NCBI GenBank assembly: GCA_000442125.1
Contig: KE546975.1
Span: forward strand, 1,240,001-1,304,000
Direction: 5' to 3'
Source of the DNA: Opeltia flavorubescens
Taxonomy: Eukaryota > Ascomycota > Lecanoromycetes > Teloschistales > Teloschistaceae
Length of the DNA stretch: 64,000 nucleotides
Positions within the stretch are counted from its first letter, which is position 1. The number at the start of each line of letters is the position of its first letter. Shown piece after piece: positions 29,872-64,000 of this stretch. The translations under genes were made by a program, and so were the position numbers. Under the pieces are notes generated by a model that worked only from the letters and a program-made list of their open reading frames with translations, was not told the DNA's origin and searched no databases.

Positions 29872-31359
29872 TCAAAGAGCTCGGAACTTCGCACTGCCCG
29901 AATTTCGAAGTCTGGCGGAGCGGGCATTGACGTGGGCAGCAACGTGACTGGCAGAATCCTTGGCGTGACCACCGAGGATGATCGAGCGCTTTGCAGGTTT
30001 GCAGTTCACGCAGCGCTTGTCGGTGCCCGTGTAGCCTGAAGTACCAGCGCCTGGGTTGGCGGCAGGAGTCTGAGCTGGAGTGACAGCGCTGGCGGTACCA
30101 GTGAAACGATTAGCCATGCTCACGGTTGGGATAACGACGCCGCTGACTGTCACTGGGGTTGCGGCCGACGGCGCGACCTGGGTCTGCATGGTAGATGGTT
30201 TGGTGACATAGACAGTGGAATGTGTCGTAATCTTCGTTGTCATTGGGCCAGCGGCGCTTTGCGCACCGGCGGTGACCGTGACGGTTTTCTCGGGAGCGGC
30301 TGGAGCGGTGACGGTGACAGTCATCTGGCCAGTGGGCACTGGAGCGACGGATTTTGACATCGTTGATGCTGGCGCTGCGGCAGCTGCTGGTTGTGAAGAC
30401 TGAGGCATCGCTGCTGAGGACGCGCCGCCGGTTGCTCTATCTGGTGCTGAGCCAGGAACGAAGATGTCGGAACCAGCGTTGAGTTGCTCAACGTACTTGG
30501 GGATAGCAGCGAAGTTGATGTCTTGGTCCTTGGCGAACTGAGCCGTCGTGGATCCGAACAAGGTGGACTGTGTTGCGCTTTTGCCGTCAATGGATATATC
30601 CATACATGTGGTGTATTTTTCCTGAAGACCTTGGGGTTGACCAGGAGTGCCTGGCGCGGTATCCCATTCCCAGACCCAATAGACGGTGTATGGCTTGCCA
30701 GATGGTGCGTCTTGTGGAATCTTGAAGTTGTTTTGGCACCAAAGATCCATTCCCATAATGGCGTCACCTTGGTGCTTGAATTCGGCTTGACGTTGTGTGG
30801 ATATCGGGCCGCCGTTGATTTGGTAGCATTGGCCGTCGTCAAATGGTTCTGTTGCCAGAAGCTTGCCTCGTTTGTCGCCTCCGGTACCTTGTGGGTTCCA
30901 GACCTTGTGAATGGAAAGAAACTTATCATCTGGCTTAGGATCGGTGGTGCCATAGAGGTAGACTGTTCCACGGTTCGGTGCCTTTCCTGGTTGGTTTTCA
31001 GGAAGGGTGACGTGTCCGTTTTCTTGATATCGTAGTGCTACCATGTCGCCAGCTGCTGCCTTTAGCATAGGAGAGCCATCGGACTGCTTTGGCTGCTGTT
31101 GTGATGGCATGCACATGGGATCAGAATCGAGGATCTTGTTGCCAGTCGGTCTGCCGTTAGGTGGAAGAAGATAAACCATGGCCTTGTCAGGACTGACACC
31201 GGCAGCGCGTTTTTGGAAAGCACGAGGATAGCCAGGCTCTCCTACAAAGGTGCCATTCTTGGCAACCACGCTCATTTCTTCGATCCATGAGTGTGCGTTG
31301 GCAGAGGCGAGGAGAGTAGCTGCCGCCAGGGCGAAGCTGCTCTTCAAAGTGAAACGCAT
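29872..31359 (-). CDS. Secreted LPMO-like protein with N-terminal His (DUF7492 type)
   Basis: This is a single exon of 495 aa; the ATG at 31359 is chosen because the open frame upstream starts at TTG and MRFTLKSSFALAAATLLASANA is a good signal peptide. Predicted cleavage after ANA leaves mature His23 at the N-terminus (HSWIEEM). The domain to about residue 260 contains YQENGHVTLPENQPG, a second conserved-looking His, plus several Cys (DPMCMP, GQCYQ, LWCQNN, TTCMD). I recall this pattern from fungal DUF7492 proteins. An N-terminal His with a second His suggests a copper histidine brace as in lytic polysaccharide monooxygenases, but this is inference. Residues about 290-440 are a Thr/Ala/Pro/Ser-rich stalk with repeated VTVTAPAAPEK-like units; the C-terminus is basic with no GPI-like hydrophobic tail. 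Confidence 0.75.
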   Translation of the reverse strand: MRFTLKSSFALAAATLLASANAHSWIEEMSVVAKNGTFVGEPGYPRAFQKRAAGVSPDKAMVYLLPPNGRPTGNKILDSDPMCMPSQQQPKQSDGSPMLKAAAGDMVALRYQENGHVTLPENQPGKAPNRGTVYLYGTTDPKPDDKFLSIHKVWNPQGTGGDKRGKLLATEPFDDGQCYQINGGPISTQRQAEFKHQGDAIMGMDLWCQNNFKIPQDAPSGKPYTVYWVWEWDTAPGTPGQPQGLQEKYTTCMDISIDGKSATQSTLFGSTTAQFAKDQDINFAAIPKYVEQLNAGSDIFVPGSAPDRATGGASSAAMPQSSQPAAAAAPASTMSKSVAPVPTGQMTVTVTAPAAPEKTVTVTAGAQSAAGPMTTKITTHSTVYVTKPSTMQTQVAPSAATPVTVSGVVIPTVSMANRFTGTASAVTPAQTPAANPGAGTSGYTGTDKRCVNCKPAKRSIILGGHAKDSASHVAAHVNARSARLRNSGSAKFRAL

Positions 31360-33890
31360 ATTGGTTGCTTCTCGTTCAAATGGTGTAGAGTGAGTGGAAT
31401 CAGGTATCAAACTGAAGCTGATGATATCTTTACAGGTGGATTTCGGATGCTGTACACTGAGTGGAAGCTGAGGGATGGTAGAAAAAGATTATTGGAATGG
31501 TAAGAATTTATATAGGCAAGTTCTTATGTGATTAGATGAGCAAGAAGTGAAATAGTGTGAACAATAAAACAAGAAGAGGAATAGTTGACAAAGCGGTTCT
31601 TTGTCAAAAGGCCAGCAATTGACTCGAACTTGCTCAAAAACAAAGTGAAAAGAAAGAAGAGAAAGAGAACAATGAGACGGGCGAACAATAGAATTGAGCA
31701 AGAATGGACAGAGTCTATGTTTTCACCTGACAATAGCTTGGGAATATGCCTCATATTATTATGAAGGCAGCGATATTGTTGAACGTCAAGGGTTCCAAAG
31801 TCATTGTAGGCCAATGGACATAGCTGATACATGTGAAATTCAACAATAAAGTGTCTCGAAAACAATTCGAAACCAGAGAAGGTAAGAGAGGAGTTCGATG
31901 GTATGGTATGAGCCATCGCTACTCTCATTCATCTGATGGGTCTGGTCGTGGTAGAATGACGCGCGTGCAATAGGTCCAGACTCAAGGACCAGTACTCGAA
32001 GTAGAAACAAGCTTTTGAGGCTCAACATAGCAAAGGGGCCAAGGAGTGGTCGAGAGGAATTGCACGATTAAAGGAGATCGAGTTTCATTGTCGTGGACGC
32101 ACGGTGGCAAATGCAAATCTCCAGTCAGAGTGCCAAGACTTGGTGTTTCATTGCTAGCTCGTTTCATCCCGCGCTTGCTTCGGTCACAGAGTTCGAGGTA
32201 GAAAGAAAACATTGACTCTTCATGACTATGAAACAGCATACATTTGTCTCGTCTTCTTGATGCCATTCATCTGTCGCGTTCCACAACCACTGAACTTGGA
32301 TCTCGCTGTGCCAAAGTATCTTCAGCTTGAGCTCTCTACCAGTCATCTCTACGTTTAGCACTGAGCTCTCAATCCTTACTGATTGGTTTGCTCTATCATG
32401 CAAAACAGGGTACAGCTTACGAACGGGTGTCGTGGAAGTCTCAAACTCGACGTTTTGAGAGTCATCAATCTTTCCGAGCGCATGTCTTCCGTCCAGGTAC
32501 TGGCCAACAACAAGGTGAGAGAGGCTCGAAACTTCTCCGACAATAGATAGGCCGGTCGGTTCAATGTACAGTCCCCTGTGCATGCTACGCTGTCCGATTC
32601 GTGCAAATATCTGTCCATTCCTTTTTCACGATAAAACACCTACGACTTGACACCAGTCTTCGAATTATCCGTCAGGAGCTTCGTGTAAAATGACCAATAA
32701 GTCAGACAATCACCCTTTTCATACCCATACCTTTTGTTTTTCGATGGATTCTCATCTTCAAACCCTAAGCATCATACTGTTGTGAAGACGGACGAGGAAT
32801 ATGATAGATTTTACACCGATTTTACGCCGATTTTGAAGCAGCGTTCCGCCCGAAAGACCTACTTGGAACCAAAAGGCCTGATGTGTATGGTACCATAGGC
32901 TGAATTGTGTAGTTTCTTCGCTAAAGTCAATACCAAGTTCAAGAGCAGTCCAGTAACAAGTAGTGTGAAGATCGAGAGTCCAATACAACTAGCACGGATT
33001 CAACCCCAGCCTTCGGCGAATTGGCGAAAGCGAGTGGTACTGTAGGCAAAATTCTCGCATGAACAGCACGACAGGAAAGAAGAGAAGATGATTCTCTAAG
33101 CGCCCAAACCTGAATCCGGGCCATGATCACCGGATAACAGAATCTCTTACGCCAACTATGATCGGAAATAGAAAATGGCACCTAGCAGGGTTATCACTGT
33201 CAGCATACGAAGCTGCATTTCCGTGTGCGTACTAGACAGACGGTGCCTTTTCTCTAGGAAAGCATTCATGCCCGTACCGTTTCTGTTGTTGGGGTTTTGA
33301 CATGTGGTCCAAACGTAGGGGTGATTTCTATCGTGAAGCATGGAAGAATACCAGCTCAAAGTTATCAGTAGCAACATCTGCCTTACGGAGATTGATCAGA
33401 CATCAAAGCATCACTTCAGGCATGCTGGTATGCTTGGTCAAGCCTGCAGAAATCGGCGAGCCACATATCAGACACGGACCAACACAACCACGCCAGTACT
33501 TATCTTTTCCGCCAGTGCCTAACTTCGATTAGAAAAGAGATCCAACATCGTGAACACACGGTTACGCTGCTCTGCAACACGTAGGCAATTGGTACAGTAA
33601 TCCTGCTCTGTACGCGAGCAAGCCGACGATGACTAAGCTCTAGAGTCATTCTGGTTGGTGTTTCCTTTTCACCTGCCTGATGTGTATTGGACGCGTAATT
33701 TCTACATGATAGACGACAAATCATGAATGCAATTGTCACCTAAGTTTAGGCAGCGACGATAGTTTAACTATGTGTATTCTCCTGTACTTGTTTTCTTTAT
33801 GTCCTCGTAGCTCAGAGCGCACATCTACCAACCTACGGACCGGGGATTTTGTTGTTATACCAAAAACCTACCAAAGCTTCCACAGTCGCG
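31360..33890. other. 2.5-kb gene-poor region; weak minus-strand coding trace
   Basis: This region lies between two genes transcribed divergently (DUF7492-like minus, GNAT plus). Several minus-strand frames between about 32160 and 33180 look faintly protein-like. The best is the frame ending at 32164, with GLSIVGEVSSLSHLVVGQYL and PVRKLYPVLHD. They are short and broken by stops, and I could not join them with credible introns. They may be relics of a decayed gene or chance. No inverted repeat, RNA gene or transposon protein was recognised. Confidence 0.4.
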
Positions 33891-48772: not shown

Positions 48773-51700
48773 ATGAGGCATCACCTCGTCACTGCGCTGC
48801 TGGGCGCGAGCTTGTCGACTAATTTTGGAGTATTGGCCGCGGGTGTAACGCTTACGACAAGAATACCTTTCTGCCCTAGTTCGGGATCTGGAGGATTCAG
48901 GTTTGCTACCTAGGCTACGCTTAAAGCAACCAGGACTGATATCTTGTTAGCTCGAGTCCTGCTGACTCCAACCTGGTTTCGGTCAATACACGCACGACTA
49001 CGTTGCCAAATGGTGTCGTTTCCACTATTACAAGCTCCACAACGCTTTCGCCCGTAACTCTCAGCTCAGTATCAGTCACTACACGCACAACGACACTGCC
49101 CAATGGCTCTGTTGCTACTCTGACAAGCTCCTCAACCCTCCTTCCCCCTCCATCTGGAGGATCAACAGCTGTAACCACCTACACAACAACTGGTCCTGAT
49201 GGCTCAGCAACCGTGGTTACTAGCTCTACGATAATCCTTCCAACGCCGACTGGAAGTCCAACGGCTGTGACTACCTATACGACGACTGGTTCCGACGGCT
49301 TAGCAACCGTAGTAACAAGCTCTAAGACCATCGTCCCAACGCCGACTGGGAGTCCAACGGCTGTGACTACTTATACTACGACTGGTCCTGGTGGTTCACT
49401 CACTGTAGTTACAAGCTCCTCGACTATCGTCCCACCGCCAGCTGGTTCCACCAGTCTCTCTACCTTCGTTTCCACCAACTCTCAAGGATCCTTAATCACG
49501 ACCACGAGGACTTCCATTATCCCGCCACCAGTGTCTTCCAGCACTGCGCCGCCGCCATCGTATTCGACAGCTTGCACAGGAGCTCATTCTTATAGTGATA
49601 ACCTAGGATTCGTCTGGCATGTTGACTGTGGTATCGATTATCCTGGCTACGATCTCCCATCCGTCACTGTTTCTAGCTTTGAGCTTTGCCTCGAAGCATG
49701 CGACAACTATGTCCCCAAGGCGGATATATCTAATGGTGCAACTTGCGTCGGCGTCGCATATGGAGCTCGAGATAATTCAGGGGAATGTTATCTAAAGTAC
49801 TTCGTCGGTGAGACACGCTACTTTCCTGGATTCGACTCTGCAAACAAGGGCGGGTCAAATGTTATGACTTTACCTCCGACGTCATTTTCCGTTATCCCGG
49901 ATTCTACGTCTGTCGGTCCATCAACTGTCGTCGTCCAATCTTCGACCAATAGTCAAGGTTCAGTAGTGGTCTCATCGACAACCTCGAGGTTATCTCCACC
50001 TGCAACTCCATCAACTACTGTGATCGTCCAGTCGTCAACGAACAGCCAGGGCTCTGTAATAGTTTCCTCGACGACATCTTCAGCCTCGAATCCCAATTAC
50101 TCAACCTCATGCGGAGGAACGTACGTCGACCTCCTTAGCACCTCGTGGCATGTGGACTGCAGCACCGCATACCCTGGGAATGATCTTCCAGCTGTCACGG
50201 TTTCTAGCTTTGAGAAATGTCTTGAAGCATGTGATAATTACATTCCCTCGCTGAACACTGCCAACGGTGCAAGCTGTATTGCTGTCACATACGGAATCCG
50301 GACTGGCGGAGGTGAATGCTATCTCAAATCCAACATCACCGAGACGTTGTCGATAGGTGGCCAAGATTCGGCGTACAAGATGAATTCTGGTGTCCGCCCT
50401 CCTGGCTCCACGACCAATACCCCGGTGGTCGTACCCAGTACCTCGACCACTGTTTCGCCTACTCCTACCACGCCTCCTCCTAATACCACGCCTTCTAATA
50501 CACCCTCTACGATTCCCACCACTTCAACAACTTCAACCCCAACCGACCCGGCTTTGCTATTCCAACCTTGCCCTCGATCCAATGGGCAGCAGTTCATCGA
50601 TAGGCAAGGTACGGTATACGACGTCACCTGTTCATGCGAATACCCTGGCTATGATCTTACGACCCCTCACTTTGATTCTTTCCAGGATTGTATCAATGCT
50701 TGCGATAACTACATCCCCGATCCGAACATTGCCGCGGGTCAAGATTGTGTTGCAGCAACATGGTCATATGGAAACCCAGGAGGGAACTGTTATCTCAAAT
50801 ACGCAATTGGTGAAGTTGTATACGGTAATCAAAACGATTGCAGTGTGAAGCTTCATAATTACACCATCCCGGTCTATGTTTCCAGCACCACTTCGAGTGT
50901 TGGTCTTACGACTACGAGTAGCTCCTCCACTAGCTCCTCTAGTAGTTCATCCAGCAGTTCATCCAGCAGTTCATCCAGCAGTTCATCCAGCAGCTCGTCC
51001 AGCAGCTCGTCCAGTAGTTCTTCCAGCAGCTTATCTAGCACTTCATCCAGCACTTCCTCCACTCGCTCTTCCACTAGCTCCTCTATCAGCTCCTCCACCA
51101 GCTCCTCAAGCAGCTCATCCAGCACAAGTCCACCAGTTCCGGCTACAACAACCACCTCCAGCAACACTGCGACTACTACCATCCCACCACAGATCAGTGG
51201 TACCGCTACTTGCCCTGCTAACCGTGGCGCAATCTACACCGACTCGTACGGGCAGGTTTACGAGATTCATTGTGGACAGCAAGTCGACGGAGACAACGCA
51301 TTGAGCGCCTTCCACGCCGACTCCTTTGAGAAATGTGTCAATGTCTGCGAAGTTCTCGGCGGATGCACAGCAGTCACGTATCCTGGCGAAACCGGCAATA
51401 TCGCCAATTCCAATTGCTATCCGTACACTTCCTTCCGGTTCTACAGCCAACAAGCAGTCACCGATACCCTGCTTAGCGCAAGAGTGTACAACGGTTCAAC
51501 AAGTCCGAATTTTGCGAATTCTGTTCAGCTCTGCCCCAGCTATGACAATAGCCAGTTCAAGGATCCAATCGGGCGGACTTACAACATCAGATGCAACCAG
51601 GGCTTTCCCACAGCTAGTAATGACCTTTATGCCTCTGTCATGTACACCCTGGAAGCTTGTGCGGCTTATTGCAGTCTTTACAGCACATGTGTTGGGGTAA

Positions 51701-51810
51701 CATTTACGGGCTATACCACGGGCAGTCGGGATACCAACTGCTTTCCGCGGTCAACATACGGTACTATAGCAGCTCGATCGGGTGCAAGCGTGGCTTACAT
51801 TTCGTCGTAA
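48773..51810 (+). CDS. Secreted mucin-like protein with five Cys-rich PAN/Apple-like modules
   Basis: Exon 1 (48773-48900) carries the ATG and a signal-like N-terminus (HLVTALLGASLSTNFGVLAAG). A 50-nt intron (GTTTGC..GTTAG) leads to exon 2 (48951-51810), giving 995 aa. The N-terminal part has three 32-residue Thr/Ser/Pro repeats (TTYTTTGPDGSATVVTSS-type). Then come five modules of about 90 residues sharing an opening Cys, W/Y-x-V/I-x-C, SFE-x-C-x-x-A/V-C, G-x-x-C-x-A/G-V-T/A and N/E-C-Y/F. Modules 1-3 share the block ACDNY(V/I)P, while 4 and 5 have diverged. A poly-Ser tract separates modules 3 and 4. The fold looks PAN/Apple-like, used elsewhere for carbohydrate or protein binding. It is probably a heavily O-glycosylated wall or matrix protein. 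No GPI tail is seen. Confidence 0.8.
49165..49450 (+). repeat. Tandem 96-bp coding repeat (three copies)
   Basis: Three consecutive copies of a 32-codon unit encode VTTYTTTG-P/S-D/G-G-x-x-TVVTSS-x-x-I-x-P-T/P-P. Copies 1 and 2 are nearly identical at the DNA level, and the third has diverged more at its end. They lie in the Thr/Ser stalk of the mucin-like protein, and copy number could vary by slippage or unequal exchange. Confidence 0.85.
50918..51126 (+). repeat. Poly-serine coding minisatellite (12-bp AGCAGTTCATCC-type units)
   Basis: Serine codons of both codon families (AGC/AGT and TCN) alternate in a 12-base unit, purest between 50940 and 51020. The unit then decays into TCN-AGC-ACT variants that introduce Thr, Leu and Arg. 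It encodes about 60 mostly serine residues between PAN-like modules 3 and 4. Exact 12-bp units make it prone to length change. Confidence 0.88.
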
Positions 51811-53075: not shown

Positions 53076-55368
53076 TTACCCCTCCCCCAAACTCTCCCTC
53101 AGCAGCCCCTCATCCACATCCACAGCCTCCACACACCCACCCCCTACCACCCTCCTCCTCTCCTTCTCCTTCTCCCTAAGCGCCCTCAAACTCCCCTTCT
53201 GATTCACCCCCGTCGGCCTCTCCTCCAAACGCGCCTTCTCCCTAAGATTCCCCGTAGAAGCCATAGGCGCAAGGGCCCATTTCCCCCATACCCAGCCTCC
53301 AACTCGTTTGCCCAGTGTGGAGTTACCATTGTTATTGGGGTGGGAGAGGGAGGATGCTAGCGTGGATACGGCGCCTGAGGAGGAGATAGCGCGGGCTGTG
53401 ATGGGTGTGGCGCTGATGATTGGTTGGGTTGGGATTATGCTGCTTGAGGGGGGTGCTGCGAAGGAGGTGCGTGCTTTTTGGGCAGCAGAGCCGCGGAAGA
53501 GGAGGGATTGTTGGTGGCGGAGGTTGTGCGTCGGGGGGTGCTTGATTGTGGAGAGGATGCTTTCGTGCGAGGCGGATTTTCGGAGGCGTCGGGTTGGGGA
53601 GTGGTTATGGTTGTTATTGATGTCAGGGTTGTGTGTTCGCGATTGGTCGTGATCGTGCTCTGGCTCTTCCAAGATGATATCGGGATCTGTATGTTTGCTG
53701 CGTGACGCGGGTCTGTATTTATCGAAGTGATCTTCTTGAAATTCTAAGCGGCCGCTGTGAATTGAGGCTTTTGACGGCGAAATTGTTGATGAGGGTGAGT
53801 TGCGCAAAGGTATTGATCCGTCTCTCTCGCTGTTCAGGGGCTTGAATGTTGGAGAGAAGACATCCACGGAATCGGGACTGGTGGGTCTTGAGGAATCGGA
53901 TAGGAACTCAAACATGGAGGGATGCGGAGAGGTGGATTCCAAGGAAGGAGCCACAGATGGACGGGTGTTTGTTGATTGAAATGAAAGTCGGTGTGGGTAT
54001 GAACCTTGAGACAAGGGAGGGATGCTTGCGGAGGTTTGCGAGAGGATTGTAGCGGCAGATGAGGGTGGCTGCGTTGGTGTGCCGCGCATACTTGGAGTCC
54101 TTGGGGATTTTGGAGTGTTAGAACTTGATCTTGATGTGGAGGCCCCTGAAGGAAGCAGATTACGCCTCCTCCTCACTCGTCGTGGCCCCGTAGACCTCTG
54201 CCGCCCAGGCGAATCAGCTACGTTAGGTTCATGGTAGTGGTGATGAACGTGGAGTGCTGGGATGTTCTCAGGTTCGGGCTTATGGCTGCCATCAAGATCT
54301 TTTTCAAGTGTCACCCGTGGTTTGGCCTGCGTGTGTTCTGACGGTAGTTCTTGGTGTAGGATCATCTGTTCTCGAAGATTCTGGACCTCTTCATGGGAAC
54401 CAAGAAGCATTTCCCGCAATTCCATGATACCCATCTGCAGGCTCGCATTGTCTGCTAGGATGTCCTTGACGAAGTGTGAGACCACATTGGTGTTGCCATC
54501 TTTAGCCTTCCCAAGCGTGGTTGCAGCTGCTGCACCTTTCAGACGACCTGCTGCGTTTTCCAACTGTCTCTCCACGGCCTGCCTTCTCTCGTATCGACTC
54601 ATGACCTCTGCGTGGCGTTCGCTCTCCTCTTTTGCTTCAAGCTCAATGCGGTCAATTTGTTCTTGGAACAGAGCAATGGTTCGCTCGGCGTCCTTCCAAC
54701 GCTGGATTGCCGACCGGTGACTATTCTCACTTGACGCCAGCTTTTCGTGTAGATTTGCCTGCTCAGCCTCCATCGATGACAATTGTGACTCGAGGTGTGA
54801 CGTTCGTGCGGCCAGAGCGTTGAGTCGGTCAAATTCTTGGCGCGTCGAATGCAGCGTTGCGTTCAGAGAGAGGATATGAGCTTCCGAGTCAGAGACGGCA
54901 TTGTTCACGGACTCGAGCTGATCCAAGAGGTTTCGATTGTCTTCGATGATCCTCGCATTTGTAGCTTCCGAGTCTTTTTTGTCGCATTCGAGCTTGTCGA
55001 TTGTAGAAAACAAGCTCCGGCGCTCCTCCTCGGCTTCCAGCACGTATGCTTCATGACGAGCAAGTAGCGACTGAAGCGCAAAGGTTAGTGACATGATCAA
55101 GGGCGGTCTGTAGACGAGATTCAAGGCGCAAGAGGAAAGGTAATGGGGACTGATGCAGTCTGCAATGTTGACATCGGGATTGCAAATATCAACATACTGT
55201 GCCAGCTTCAGCCGCTCTTTGAAGATCTCTCTCCAGACTTCTCAGAGCAGCATCATTGTGCTCCAGATAGGCACATGAGTCGCGACCACAACAGCAGCGA
55301 GGAGCAAGCGCGGTGCTCTGCATTCCATCCGGAGATTGCGATGCCAGATCGGGCCAAGAATGCGTCAT
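53076..55368 (-). CDS. Coiled-coil protein of unknown function
   Basis: Exon 1 (55368-55198) and exon 2 (55070-53076) join across a 127-nt intron (GTATGT..TTCAG), giving 721 aa. Exon 1 supplies a conserved-looking opening, CCCGRDSCAYLEHNDAAL, then SLERDLQRAAEAGT, which runs into SLLARHEAYVLEAEEERRSL. I recall this order from a widely distributed but uncharacterised Pezizomycotina family. Residues about 30-290 are almost continuous heptad-type coiled coil (Leu/Glu/Gln/Arg rich). A short His cluster (LHVHHHYHEP) near residue 335 leads into a long Ser/Pro/Arg-rich disordered tail. The coiled coil suggests a scaffold or cytoskeleton/spindle-pole-type role, but no function can be assigned. There is no signal peptide or membrane helix. 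Confidence 0.8.
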
Positions 55369-55965: not shown

Positions 55966-57305
55966 ATGTTCTCGATCATGGATGCCCAGAGTCGTCTGCG
56001 AGGTCTCACGGCATGCATCATATCTACTCTCCTTATCGTCTCCGCGTTTACGAGGCTGTGGGACCCAAAAGTCAATCGTCTTGAGCAGCAAGCAATTGCG
56101 TCGGTTTCAACTTCTCCAGCACATACAAAGGTAAGCCTCCAATATCCCGCTATCGAGAGTGACCGGCACACTCATGCAAAGTGGCATCACTATCATGAAC
56201 ATCACCACCGTGTCGCAGCCCGGGCTACCAGTGATGTTGCGGAGCGACTCGATGGCTCGACTTTCTCCTTTCACCCTGGCCAGCGGCTGGGATCCTCACG
56301 TTCATTAGAGAACAGCTTTACAGCTGGAAATCCATCCTTCTCAAAACGAGCAATACCAGACCACTTAAGCTTCCAGGACTATGTTTGCAAAGGGAAAATC
56401 TATTTTAACAACATGAGAACGGCCGGACCCAATCCTCCCAAGTGGGTTCGCGATGACTTGGAGCATAACGGCTGGGAGATCGAAGAAGGAGATCCGGCCA
56501 CGCTGGGTCCAGAAATGGTGAAAGCAATGAAAGCAGTTGATGTCTCCACTGAAGAAGAAAAAAACCCAGAAATTACAGCAACTCTGGAGAACGAATTCTC
56601 GAACTTTCGGAATGAGATAAAGGTGCGTAAGTAGTATGATCTGCTGCTTTTCTTATGTGGCGCGAAAGGTCTTCGCTTTTGACTCCTCTCACACGCTGTG
56701 AGAGTACTCACTTACATGCATTTTCCTGTCTTCAGGATCCAGTAGGACAGGGTGGTCAGTATACTGAATTCTACAACGTTGATGACCATGCCATTGTTCG
56801 CACTTACGACTATTCCCCATCATATTATGCCAATAAAAGTCTTGGTACCGCTGAAAATCCCTTGAAAGGAGACGCCCTTCGGGCTGTGATCCCGAAAATG
56901 CACACCTGGGCAGACGTTGTTTGGGCAGTTTGGGCAGGAAAAGCTGGCAACCAGACCGGTGACTTGCGCCACATTTTCCACTATGATATCCTCGACACGC
57001 CGACTCAATATGTAATCGACTCAATCGAAGGAAGCCTCCAAGATGATAAAGNATCTAGAACTCTAAATCTACCATGGCCTGGTCACACATACAACCTTAC
57101 AGACGATAGAGGATTAGCAATCCTAGGCTCCCCGCACGGGGTCGGGATATCATGGCTCTACCTTAACGGGAGGAAAGCCTTGGGTGTCAGAGATCAAATA
57201 ACAGTAACTGTTTTCACTGGTCCTCATCCAAATCCCAAATTAGCGGCTGGAATCAAGCAATACTATCTCATGTGGGACTTAGGAGCTCCACCACCTCGAT
57301 CGTGA
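55966..57305 (+). CDS. Predicted secreted or membrane-anchored His-rich protein, unknown function
   Basis: Exons 55966-56622 and 56736-57305 flank a 113-nt intron (GTGCGT..TTCAG), giving 408 aa. A hydrophobic N-terminal helix (LTACIISTLLIVSAFTRLW, about 14-32) is a signal peptide or type II anchor. Residues 68-81 contain eight His in fourteen positions (HTHAKWHHYHEHHH), a possible metal-binding patch. Exon 2 encodes a mixed domain with DPVGQGGQYTEFYNVDDHA, IPKMHTWADVVWAVWAG and LRHIFHYDILDTPT. The W-x-D-V-x-W block is like a segment that I have seen in lineage-specific secreted fungal proteins of unknown role. No family can be named. A single N at 57052 makes one codon (GNA) ambiguous but does not break the frame. 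The in-frame Met at 55978 is an alternative start. Confidence 0.68.
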
Positions 57306-59676: not shown

Positions 59677-60708
59677 TCAATGCCTCCTCCCATGAGGACG
59701 GTGCCCTCCCCCTGCCCGCCCATCTGGCGGACCGTGTCTTCCTCCACCACCACCCGGCGGATCTCTCCTCCCTCCATCCCGAGCACCCGCTCCCCTCGCA
59801 GGAGGACCACCTGGTCCATCATCTTCACCCTCACCTCCCAAAGCCAGGGCTGCCATGCCAGCTATACCCGTTGCTAATCCCTGATGTCGACGTCTCCGTC
59901 TTCGACGTTGATCCTCGCTGGAACTGCTGGAAGTGTCCGATGCGGTGGTATCAGTGTCGGAACTTCCGGATGAATCTGGGGAGTCGGATCGAGGGGGTGC
60001 GTGGCCGCGGGGAGGGCCATGAGAGGGTTGATGCCCATGACCATTTCTAGGTGGTCCATGTGATGGACCGGGTGGGTGTTGTCCTTGTTGACCGCCACGC
60101 GGTCCCTGAGGATGGCGAGGAGGTTGCCCATACCCATCGAGTCCTTGTGGTGGTCTAGGTGGATGTCCTCCTCCCTGCCCACGTGGTGGCCCTTGAGGAT
60201 GACGTGACGGACCGTGAGGTCCTTGCTGTCGGCCCCCTCTCACAGGCCCTTCGCACACCCCAGGAGCTGGCACCCCGTACAATTCCAAACTCCCAGGGAA
60301 TATCCCCCGCTGGATCTGCTCTATCTCGCTCCTCTCCAACAGACCTATCACAAAGATATCGCCCACATTGTGTTCAATACCAATTGCGTAGCACATCCAT
60401 CGATCTGATGATTCCATGAGTATGGAGATAGCTGCCGCGCCACCAGGTTCCGAGTCAGGGATCCTCCAGAGGGCATGGTCCTCTTTCACGTTGACGAGTT
60501 CTGGTGGTGAATCTTGCGTCATGATCTCGTAGGCCTCTCCATCATCTCTGGTTCCGAGGCTTCGCCCGTTGGCTTGTAGCCAGGCGTATCCTGGCATCAC
60601 GACCCATGCTTGGTAATCTTCCTCTGTTCTTATGGCATCCATGAGAGTGGACTTGGGGAACATGGTTGGCGCTTGCGGGTTAACGATACCCCGTGGAGCA
60701 AGAGGCAT
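59677..60708 (-). CDS. Tandem-family paralogue A: GVP-x-PGVC core with Pro/Gly/His-rich tail
   Basis: This is a single exon of 343 aa with an ATG at 60708. I do not recognise the family. Residues 1-155 form a globular core: MFPKSTLMDAIRTEEDY, PGYAWLQANG, ELVNVKEDHALWRIP, AIGIEHNVGDIFVIGLL, and the signature FPGSLELYGVPAPGVCEGPV. The same blocks occur in the next two genes on this strand. Residues about 160-255 are a low-complexity tail of Pro/Gly/His/Arg (repeated PSHGPPR and RHPQGP-type units). An acidic/Ser cluster (SSGSSDTDTTASD) and a run of eight Arg follow, then a short hydrophobic patch (GIAGMAALAL) and a Gly/Arg/His end. There is no signal peptide, so it is probably cytosolic or nuclear. 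The Arg/Gly content is like that of RNA-binding or condensate-forming proteins, which is inference only. Confidence 0.72.
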   Translation of the reverse strand: MPLAPRGIVNPQAPTMFPKSTLMDAIRTEEDYQAWVVMPGYAWLQANGRSLGTRDDGEAYEIMTQDSPPELVNVKEDHALWRIPDSEPGGAAAISILMESSDRWMCYAIGIEHNVGDIFVIGLLERSEIEQIQRGIFPGSLELYGVPAPGVCEGPVRGGRQQGPHGPSRHPQGPPRGQGGGHPPRPPQGLDGYGQPPRHPQGPRGGQQGQHPPGPSHGPPRNGHGHQPSHGPPRGHAPPRSDSPDSSGSSDTDTTASDTSSSSSEDQRRRRRRRHQGLATGIAGMAALALGGEGEDDGPGGPPARGAGARDGGRRDPPGGGGGRHGPPDGRAGGGHRPHGRRH

Positions 60709-61337
60709 CTTTACTTATTCGGGATTGTCGCTCTAAAAATTGTTCTTGGAAAAGCAAGGTGAGAAATATCTATACGTAACATATAGGAGGATGAAAGTTC
60801 AAGGAAGCAACGAACTTTTATATCCTTTCGTGAGAGACCTTTCTGATGACTCTGACAGAAGTGACTTTCCTGATGAAGCAGACATACCCCATGGTAATCT
60901 AGTCACAATTCCCACCAATAATCCTGACATGATCACAAAACTTCATTCCACTCTTTCAATACACGTCGTCAATAATCAGGAAGACTACATTACCTGATGA
61001 TACTTTCATCGCCACCGTCTACTTGATTGACACAAAAACCGGCTCAAACCCTCCACAACAGTTCTAGACATAGAGGAAAGGGCTGAAGAATGCAAGTTTA
61101 ATTGAGAATTCGCTATTGTGTGTCAGTGCTACATTCTTTTCAATCTACTCATTACGCTTATAACATTTTCACCCTTCATTTCACGGTATCGACAGGATTA
61201 TCGTTTGATAATGATCAATTCTCACATGTACGTACGCTCGTGTTAAAAAACTCTCGTTGAATGCATGCACTTTGGATAAACTATACACCTAAACTAAATT
61301 TCTCACCTCCTCTCTCTCCACAGATCAGCCCGTCTAG
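60709..61337. other. Intergenic between tandem paralogues A and B
   Basis: This 629-nt region should contain the promoter of paralogue A. It is A/T-rich with no open frame of interest; a leftover of the duplicated coding block was looked for and not seen. Confidence 0.5.
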
Positions 61338-61874
61338 CTAACGCACCCACCTCGTCATCCGATCGAATTTCTGAGATAAAGATTCGTCCTTAACAGGACC
61401 TACGCAAACGCCCGGCCCAGGAACCCCGTACAATTCCAAACTTTTCGGAAACCTCCCTTGCATAATATCCTCCAACTCATCCCCGGACAAAAGCCCTACT
61501 TCATATATCTCCCCCGCGTTCTCATGAACCCCCAGCGCCTGACAACTCCACCGTCCCTCAAGCTCATCCATGACAACCGAAATCGCCTTACTAATACCGA
61601 CGTGATCATCGCAAAACGGGATCTTCCACAGCGCGTGGCCGTCGGCGACGTTAGTCAGCTCCGGCTGCTTTTTTGTTTGTGTTTTGAGGTAGCGCCATAG
61701 TTCTTCTTTTGACATGCTGGCGATACCTGGGACGTTTGTCTGAAGCCATGCGCGGCCTGGCCCTTCGACTTGGAAGTGATAGTCCTCGTTTGTTTTTATG
61801 AATGTCGACCAACAAGTGCATGGAAACATGTAACGTGCTAGGGATCGAATGACGTTTTGGCGTGCGAGAACCAT
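61338..61874 (-). CDS. Tandem-family paralogue B: GVP-x-PGVC core, no tail
   Basis: This is a single exon of 178 aa. The open frame reaches an earlier ATG at 62003. The ATG at 61874 is chosen because MVLARQNVIRSLARYMFPCT lines up with the start of paralogue A (MPLAPRGIVNPQAPTMFP). Shared blocks follow in the same order: FIKTNEDYHF, GRAWLQTNVPG, ELTNVADGHALWKIP, ALGVHENAGEIYEVGLL and FPKSLELYGVPGPGVCVGPV. The protein ends 18 residues after the signature, so it consists of the core only, which marks the core as an independent domain. No signal peptide is seen from the chosen start. The function is unknown. Confidence 0.72.
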   Translation of the reverse strand: MVLARQNVIRSLARYMFPCTCWSTFIKTNEDYHFQVEGPGRAWLQTNVPGIASMSKEELWRYLKTQTKKQPELTNVADGHALWKIPFCDDHVGISKAISVVMDELEGRWSCQALGVHENAGEIYEVGLLSGDELEDIMQGRFPKSLELYGVPGPGVCVGPVKDESLSQKFDRMTRWVR

Positions 61875-62764
61875 CTTTCGGTAACAACAAAAGTACCCGT
61901 CTGTTTTCCCTTTCTTTCTCGCTTTTCCCTTGGAAATCGGTTTGTATGGAGCCAAATGAGAAAACTGATATTCTAGATGATATATGAGAGAAGGGCAAAG
62001 CATGAGGAGAGTTGACCTAGCTTTATATACTGCCCTTTAGCAACATGGTTGTGACAACAGCTCCGTGGTGATGACTAAAATCTAGAAATTCCAGGGATTA
62101 ATCGTCCTTCCTGGTCTTTGCCTCACAACTTCATGTCAGTCACAGTCTCTCTATTCAGTCATTGGTGGAATCAGGGATGACATGTCAATTAGTTTTGCCC
62201 TACTTCTCAATCAGTGAGGTGAAGTACAGAGTCTTTCAACAATTTTCAATGGTCACATCACCATGTCACTCTTTTCAGTACTTGTCCATGACATGAATCA
62301 TGGAGATACCACATGAACAGTTCTATGAGTCATTCTAATTGAAAGCTGGACTATTGGAAATGTTGTATAAGTAGTCTAATCTCGACGTATCGTTTTTCTC
62401 ACTGAGCCAGCTCATATTCGGCTAGTGGAGAGCACTGAGAGTTGAGGAAGGAAGAAAGGGAGGGAAATGGATTAAGATGTAAGGATGATCGAAAAGTTCA
62501 TAAGCTGTAAGTATTGGACATGCTGCTCTTATTGACTTGTCTGAACTTAAGTACCATTCTTTCCGCCCCGATGTTCATTGACTATATTAAAGAGAAAGAA
62601 ATTTCCAAAAGTGGACTTATCAACAAACATACATCTCAGAAAAGCCCAACGCTTAAAATTGATTCCACATTGCATGCATCAATCAACAACCACAGCATAC
62701 TTCTATACCCCCCTCAAATCCACATCCCCCCTTTGCTCTTCACCATCCAATCCAACCCACTAAC
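61875..62764. other. Intergenic between tandem paralogues B and C
   Basis: This 890-nt region holds the promoter of paralogue B. An in-frame ATG at 62003 could extend B by 43 mostly basic and aromatic residues, but conservation with A does not support it. Nothing else is seen. Confidence 0.5.
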
Positions 62765-64000
62765 CTAATGCAGCCCCTTCTTCTCATCCCTCCCCTTCCC
62801 ATACCCATTCTGCGCCTTCAGCGCCTCCAACCTCTTCTTCTCCTCCTCATCAATCGCAGGCAACTCTTCCTCCTCATCCGACGGACTCCTGCCCCGACGC
62901 CGACCTCCTCTAGCTCCACGACCTGCAGCGGCCTTGCGAGCAGGGCGCTCGTCATCTTCTCCACTGAAGTACTGCTCATCACCGTAAGAATCCTCATCGT
63001 CTGAAAAGGACCGGTGGTGTCGACTCGGTTTAGCCTTCGTACCATGACCTCTCGGTGCTCGCCGGGGTTGATCTTCTTCATCTTCGTCGGAACCTGACGG
63101 TGAGTGGTGGCGTGTCTTTGGCTTGGATTTCGCTTTTCCGTTCTTGCCTTTACCCTTGGGTTGCTGCTTTCGCGGAGCCTCCGTCGCTGTATCGGAACCA
63201 GAACCAGATTCGGAGCTAGATTCGGTGTCTGAAGCGAATTTTCTCCGGGGGCCACGGATACCTTGCTGCGTGCGTGGATACTGTTGATGAGATCGAGGAG
63301 GAGGACCTTCTAGCTGCAGGAATGTCCTTGGCCCATGAGATGGAACGGGCACACGACTAGAGCCAAAATCATTGTATGGATTGACTAGAGAAGTGGACAT
63401 CATCTGTGGATCTAGTGGCCGGCCACACACCCCTGGACCCGGTACGCCGAATAAGCTCAGGGAGTCTGGATACCGGTTGCTCTCAAGACTATGCTGTTCG
63501 TGCGGTTTGATCCTATTTGTGAGGAAGATATCGCCTCTGTTCTGCTCGGCTCCGACTGCAAGGAACTGGAAGTTCATGAACAGGTCAAACGTTAAGAACG
63601 CCATGCCTTCCGTAAGATATTCGGAGCGGCCAGATGCTGGGTAATATGGCAGTCTCCAGATGGCTTTACCAGGGATGACATTGATCAAGTTTGGTGTGAC
63701 GAAAGGGCGATAGTGTTGGAAAAGATCGAGTCGTTCGTCAAAGGAGATATCGCAATATCTTCGGCCTGAAAACATGTCTCGAACCCACTGACTACCTTTC
63801 TCCATGATTTGACCTAATATACCAGTTTGTTTTCTGGGCTGGATAAGGTAAGGGCATGGGAACAGGCCCTCTGGGAGTTGCGCATAAGGTTGACCTTGTG
63901 GCGAATATCCGGTGATGAACATGTTAGTGTGTTCCATGATTTCCTGTTGCAATTCTAGGACTGTGGTATAAGGAAGGACGGAGACCTTGATTGCGATATG
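62765..64000 (-). CDS. Tandem-family paralogue C: GVP-x-PGVC core with charged tail, possibly 5' partial
   Basis: The first ATG in frame is at 63937 (MEHTNMFITGYSPQ), which would give 390 aa. However, the frame stays open to the window edge (about 20 further codons), so the true start or an upstream exon may lie outside. The core has NLINVIPGKAIWRLP, AVGAEQNRGDIFLTNRI and YPDSLSLFGVPGPGVCGRP, which aligns with A and B but is the most diverged. After the core comes a Pro/Gln/Arg stretch, then alternating acidic/Ser (SDTESSSESGSGSD) and Lys/Gly-rich blocks (KGKGKNGKAKSKPK), more acidic runs, an RGARGGRRRGR motif and a charged end. The alternation of acidic and basic disordered blocks suggests a nuclear or nucleic-acid-associated protein. 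The function is unknown. Confidence 0.7.
   Translation of the reverse strand, partial: HIAIKVSVLPYTTVLELQQEIMEHTNMFITGYSPQGQPYAQLPEGLFPCPYLIQPRKQTGILGQIMEKGSQWVRDMFSGRRYCDISFDERLDLFQHYRPFVTPNLINVIPGKAIWRLPYYPASGRSEYLTEGMAFLTFDLFMNFQFLAVGAEQNRGDIFLTNRIKPHEQHSLESNRYPDSLSLFGVPGPGVCGRPLDPQMMSTSLVNPYNDFGSSRVPVPSHGPRTFLQLEGPPPRSHQQYPRTQQGIRGPRRKFASDTESSSESGSGSDTATEAPRKQQPKGKGKNGKAKSKPKTRHHSPSGSDEDEEDQPRRAPRGHGTKAKPSRHHRSFSDDEDSYGDEQYFSGEDDERPARKAAAGRGARGGRRRGRSPSDEEEELPAIDEEEKKRLEALKAQNGYGKGRDEKKGLH

Follow-up and report, generated by a model that had tools for sequence, protein, structure and literature searches.

At the right end of the 64,000-nucleotide stretch of DNA analysed here (the window) lie three head-to-tail genes on the minus strand, here called A, B and C. 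This locus raises the question of whether the three genes form one family, what kind of module they have in common, and how A and C came by their long tails. The coordinates of the genes and their parts are collected in Table 1.

Three adjoining genes with a common core are old tandem duplicates

No intron-like signals were seen inside A, B or C in a simple scan, and the frame of gene C extends 57 bases past the window end. The three proteins have in common a core of approximately 90 residues, whose end reads (F/Y)P-x-SL-x-L-(Y/F)-GVP-x-PGVC. A preliminary description of this DNA had listed three conserved blocks; all of them are present in A, B and C as quoted, in the same order and on the same strand.

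Table 1. Genes, cores and tails of A, B and C (positions in the window)
Feature	Position	Strand	Description
Gene A	59680..60708	-	343 aa, single open frame
Core of A	60238..60510	-	aa 67-157; includes NVKEDHALWRIP ... GVPAPGVC
Tail of A	59680..60237	-	aa 158-343: Pro/Gly/Gln/His/Arg linker, Ser/Asp/Thr tract, Arg7, Gly/Ala hydrophobic stretch, Gly-rich end
Gene B	61341..61874	-	178 aa; N-terminal part common with A, core and 16 residues
Core of B	61389..61670	-	aa 69-162
Gene C	62768..64000 (within window)	-	430 aa; start codon past window end, G000:C11:1304057
Core of C	63410..63700	-	aa 120-216
Tail of C	62768..63409	-	aa 217-430: linker, Ser/Asp tract, then alternating basic/acidic blocks

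In a proper alignment, the similarity of the core is far above chance in all three pairings, with or without the GVPxPGVC end. BLASTP aligned A with B at 70/162 identical residues (E=1e-40) and B with C at 30/100 (E=1e-15). Local alignment scores were compared with those of 1000 shuffles, and amounted to 333 for A/B (best shuffle 65), 146 for B/C (55) and 144 for A/C (55). When the GVPxPGVC end was left out, scores of 63 for B/C (best shuffle 42) and 72 for A/C (38) were still obtained.

The N-termini of A and B also align, as had been proposed, with a score of 88 and a best shuffle of 49. The N-terminus of C showed no alignment with that of A or B (a score of 24 in each case, at shuffle means of 23.4 and 22.8), and in an anchored global alignment the score of the N-terminal part was reached by 1620/2000 shuffles for B/C and by 705/2000 for A/C. 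The earlier view of B as the core alone needs correction, as the protein also has the N-terminal part common to A and B, about 68 residues long in B, and 16 residues after the core.

Significant homology between adjoining genes on the same strand marks A, B and C as a family of tandem duplicates, and so the tandem duplication suggested earlier is borne out, with the addition that it is old. We assessed its age by comparing codons of the core. For A/B (89 codons), identity at the first, second and third codon positions was 72%, 72% and 31%, respectively; the corresponding values were 49%, 55% and 25% for B/C (91 codons), and 51%, 60% and 33% for A/C (88 codons). Even where the encoded residue is the same, identical codons made up 18/50 in A/B, 3/29 in B/C and 11/32 in A/C, and only 7/37 of the same-residue fourfold sites of A/B were identical. 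The A/B dN was 0.50 over 157 codons; dS was not computable, which we read as saturation. Since the third positions are the least alike in these patterns, A, B and C are old duplicates kept by purifying selection, and not the product of a recent burst. A recent duplication was rejected, as third positions are near saturation.

We also considered a shared duplicated promoter, which was rejected because the upstream regions gave alignment scores of 24, 23 and 21, at best values of 31, 34 and 30 among 100 shuffles. TATA-like sequences occur upstream of the start codons, at -114 in A, -155 in B and -307 in C; these may be due to chance.

Copy number and the tails of A and C

The 34.4-Mb genome was searched with each of the three proteins and, separately, with the C core; every query returned these three loci and no others up to an E of 10. 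As this first look can miss distant copies, the count is a lower bound, i.e., at least three copies. In addition, a DNA pattern for the end of the core was scanned across the genome with up to one mismatch allowed, which gave seven matches, with two for the reversed-pattern control. The three exact matches were A, B and C themselves. The remaining four had one mismatch and all lay in frames broken by stops, and for this reason they were rejected as sites of a further paralogue. At two of the one-mismatch sites, on different contigs (L023, C1:994273, and L026, C16:718780), the surrounding stretch is identical and has stops in frame; it is probably a dispersed repeat.

The tail of A is rich in Gly, Pro, Arg and His, and that of C in Ser, Gly, Arg, Pro and Glu. 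The two had been called radically different, and their alignment is indeed not significant (a score of 85 vs. 64 +/- 10.6 for shuffles, the best of 1000 being 113, z ~2). However, they are not simply unrelated: in a window profile both begin alike after PGVC, with a Pro/Gly/Gln/His/Arg linker, a Ser/Asp/Thr tract and a basic run. The common order of segments is suggestive of a common origin without proving it.

The arrangement of charges differs from that of shuffled sequences in both tails. In the C tail the charge-block variance was 8.83 in comparison to a shuffle mean of 3.45 (0/2000 reach 8.83), and 12 CK2-type sites were found where 5.2 were expected (p 0.0005). Runs of four Lys/Arg are absent from it (0 vs. 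0.29 expected), and therefore a nuclear signal in this tail would have to come from looser basic clusters only. In the A tail the charge-block variance was 3.66 vs. 2.01 (p 0.004), and there were 4 overlapping four-residue basic runs vs. 0.04 expected (0/2000), an Arg7 run, and 6 PPR repeats vs. 0.7; CK2-type sites were not clearly enriched (4 vs. 1.6, p 0.06). The idea of RNA-binding tails of the RGG type was not supported, as RG/RGG motifs were enriched in neither the A tail nor the C tail. Recent expansion of DNA repeats was likewise rejected as a source of the tails, since they use a mixture of codons for Gly, Pro and Arg.

An exchange of tails between genes, as put forward in the preliminary description, did not find support. 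Tail pieces covering 83/186 residues of A and 81/214 residues of C, with one candidate scored for each, had no genomic match at E up to 0.01 other than to themselves, and the A and C tails start in the same segment order. Both observations suggest divergence in place, without proving it, and the lack of matches of these pieces elsewhere speaks against an origin of the tails in other genes. In the stretch that encodes the A tail (59680-60237, minus strand) the next frame on this strand likewise stays open over approximately 120 codons, which can be a chance product of G+C-rich low-complexity DNA.

The core and its possible role

The earlier statement that the core has no named domain holds for the libraries that were searched. 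Profile searches of Pfam-A with A, B and C, whole or as core, and with two hand-made consensus sequences gave no match at the gathering cut-off. The best matches were at chance level, namely A_thal_3526 to B (E 0.2, the best for the core), and SR-25 (E 0.061) and New_glue (E 0.21) to the A tail. NCBIfam gave nothing significant, its match of RNase E to the A tail (E 0.073) also being at chance level, and there was no significant match in PHROGs or PADLOC-DB. Against PDB sequences, both single-sequence and profile searches remained without a significant match (best E 0.16); the proteins named differed among A, B, C and the profile, all at E 0.16 or above. The histone-H3-like matches of the profile (E 0.22 and above) and the CTCF matches of C alone (E 0.16 and above) were set aside as chance-level, there being no agreement between queries. 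None of the best matches has a defining motif in common with A, B or C.

Two scans of prokaryote genomes gave 36 and 51 pattern matches, and three scans of viral contigs gave 49, 4 and 2, none of which was confirmed; a tblastn search of phages and plasmids with B only found no relative. This is as expected for a fungal family. No paper on the family was found in those parts of the literature that were accessible, and six strings of the core-end motif were not found there, which is weak evidence as papers seldom print such strings. Filamentous fungi do have uncharacterised families of tandem paralogues of similar build, which are like A, B and C in their small core domain, tandem duplicates, low-complexity tails and the absence of a Pfam domain.

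An AlphaFold2 model of B, made from the three-sequence alignment, had a mean pLDDT of 50.8 and a pTM of 0.51, with every residue below 70; the pLDDT of the four remaining models was 33 to 43. The model hints at repeated strand-strand-helix units (E22-27 and E32-38, then helices; E72-77, E80-85 and H92-105; E109-116, E122-128 and H131-138). It is too weak for naming a fold, and tentatively points to the alpha+beta class.

In the three-sequence alignment 31 columns are invariant, and in 25 of them the residue is Gly, Pro or a hydrophobic one (Ala, Val, Leu, Ile, Met, Phe, Trp). The remaining columns are polar (E58, N75, N119, E133, S145 and C157 in B numbering), with E58 falling where C does not align significantly; no His, Asp, Lys or Arg is invariant. 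This pattern would be more in keeping with a structural or binding role than with an enzyme, though three sequences say little on this. As for the location of the proteins, no strongly hydrophobic 19-residue stretch is present (Kyte-Doolittle maxima of 1.31 in A, 0.82 in B and 1.43 in C), and no signal peptide was seen by eye in any of the three.

The reading that we favour, and to which we give nearly an even chance, is that of a three-member family of old tandem duplicates, in which an intracellular binding module is combined with disordered tails diverged in place, A and C probably being nuclear. The module would consist of the roughly 90-residue core, with a longer version of about 145-160 aa in A and B, and its predicted class is probably alpha+beta. 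Judging from the conserved residues, it would most likely bind a partner, either a protein or a nucleic acid, and not act in catalysis. In A and C it would be followed by phosphorylatable and charge-patterned disordered tails, which would have diverged in place and not been exchanged. These tails would probably direct nuclear localisation and provide weak multivalent contacts; B would be the form without a tail.

A further serious possibility, which we would still not call probable, is that the core belongs to a domain family described before, from which it has diverged beyond the reach of single- and three-sequence profiles, and that it has the function of that family. Our profiles are shallow, being built on three sequences only, and many proteins without a Pfam match fall into known folds after structure comparison. 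On the other hand, no match to the core or the A tail reached the Pfam cut-off, and the PDB matches agree with each other as little as they approach significance. We regard it as rather unlikely that the core is a domain not described before, perhaps with a new fold and restricted to one group of fungi, whose three copies would have one binding surface and be directed to different sites by tails evolved in place. If the core does prove to be a new domain, its defined motif and three natural variants would be of use in testing how a constant core is redirected by its tails. At present A, B and C are one more uncharacterised fungal paralogue family, genuine but rather ordinary.

In comparison to the binding module that we favour, a small enzyme or ligand-binding family with a site formed by the conserved Trp, Asn-x-Gly and Cys seems improbable. 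These residues, which the preliminary description took for a possible active site, are in fact invariant in all three proteins, together with a Ser, and the core is under purifying selection. Nevertheless, a catalytic site is not indicated: chance invariance is common with three sequences, the residues His, Asp, Lys and Arg are missing from the invariant set, and no family match was found. Least probable is that A, B and C are secreted proteins, or proteins of the effector type, from a fungus associated with plants. Small tandem proteins of unknown family are common among such proteins, yet A, B and C show no visible signal peptide, have few Cys residues (two in residues 1-157 of A, five in all of B, three in residues 1-216 of C and none in the tails), and carry charged tails with basic clusters. 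Moreover, the neighbourhood is of a housekeeping kind, with matches to PET117 and V-ATPase subunit G on the left, and to a lysine methyltransferase (Methyltransf_16) and ribosomal protein S24e on the right.

The right neighbours also match a Zn(2)Cys(6) protein and a UDPGP-family nucleotidyltransferase, and a fungal-specific transcription factor domain is present elsewhere in the window; together with the neighbours, this domain marks the source of the DNA as fungal. Patterns for rDNA found no match in the assembly. The window also contains a gene at 29875-31365 (minus strand) which matches DUF7492 (E 2e-112), also a domain of unknown function, and has a Ser/Thr/Ala/Pro-rich tail. At 48943-51807 (plus strand) a large protein rich in Ser and Thr is encoded, which matches PAN domains and contains long runs of serine. 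Two adjoining open frames, at 55972-57302 (plus strand) and 53079-55241 (minus strand), are without a Pfam match at E 0.01, and a single ambiguous base (n) lies within an open frame at position 57052.
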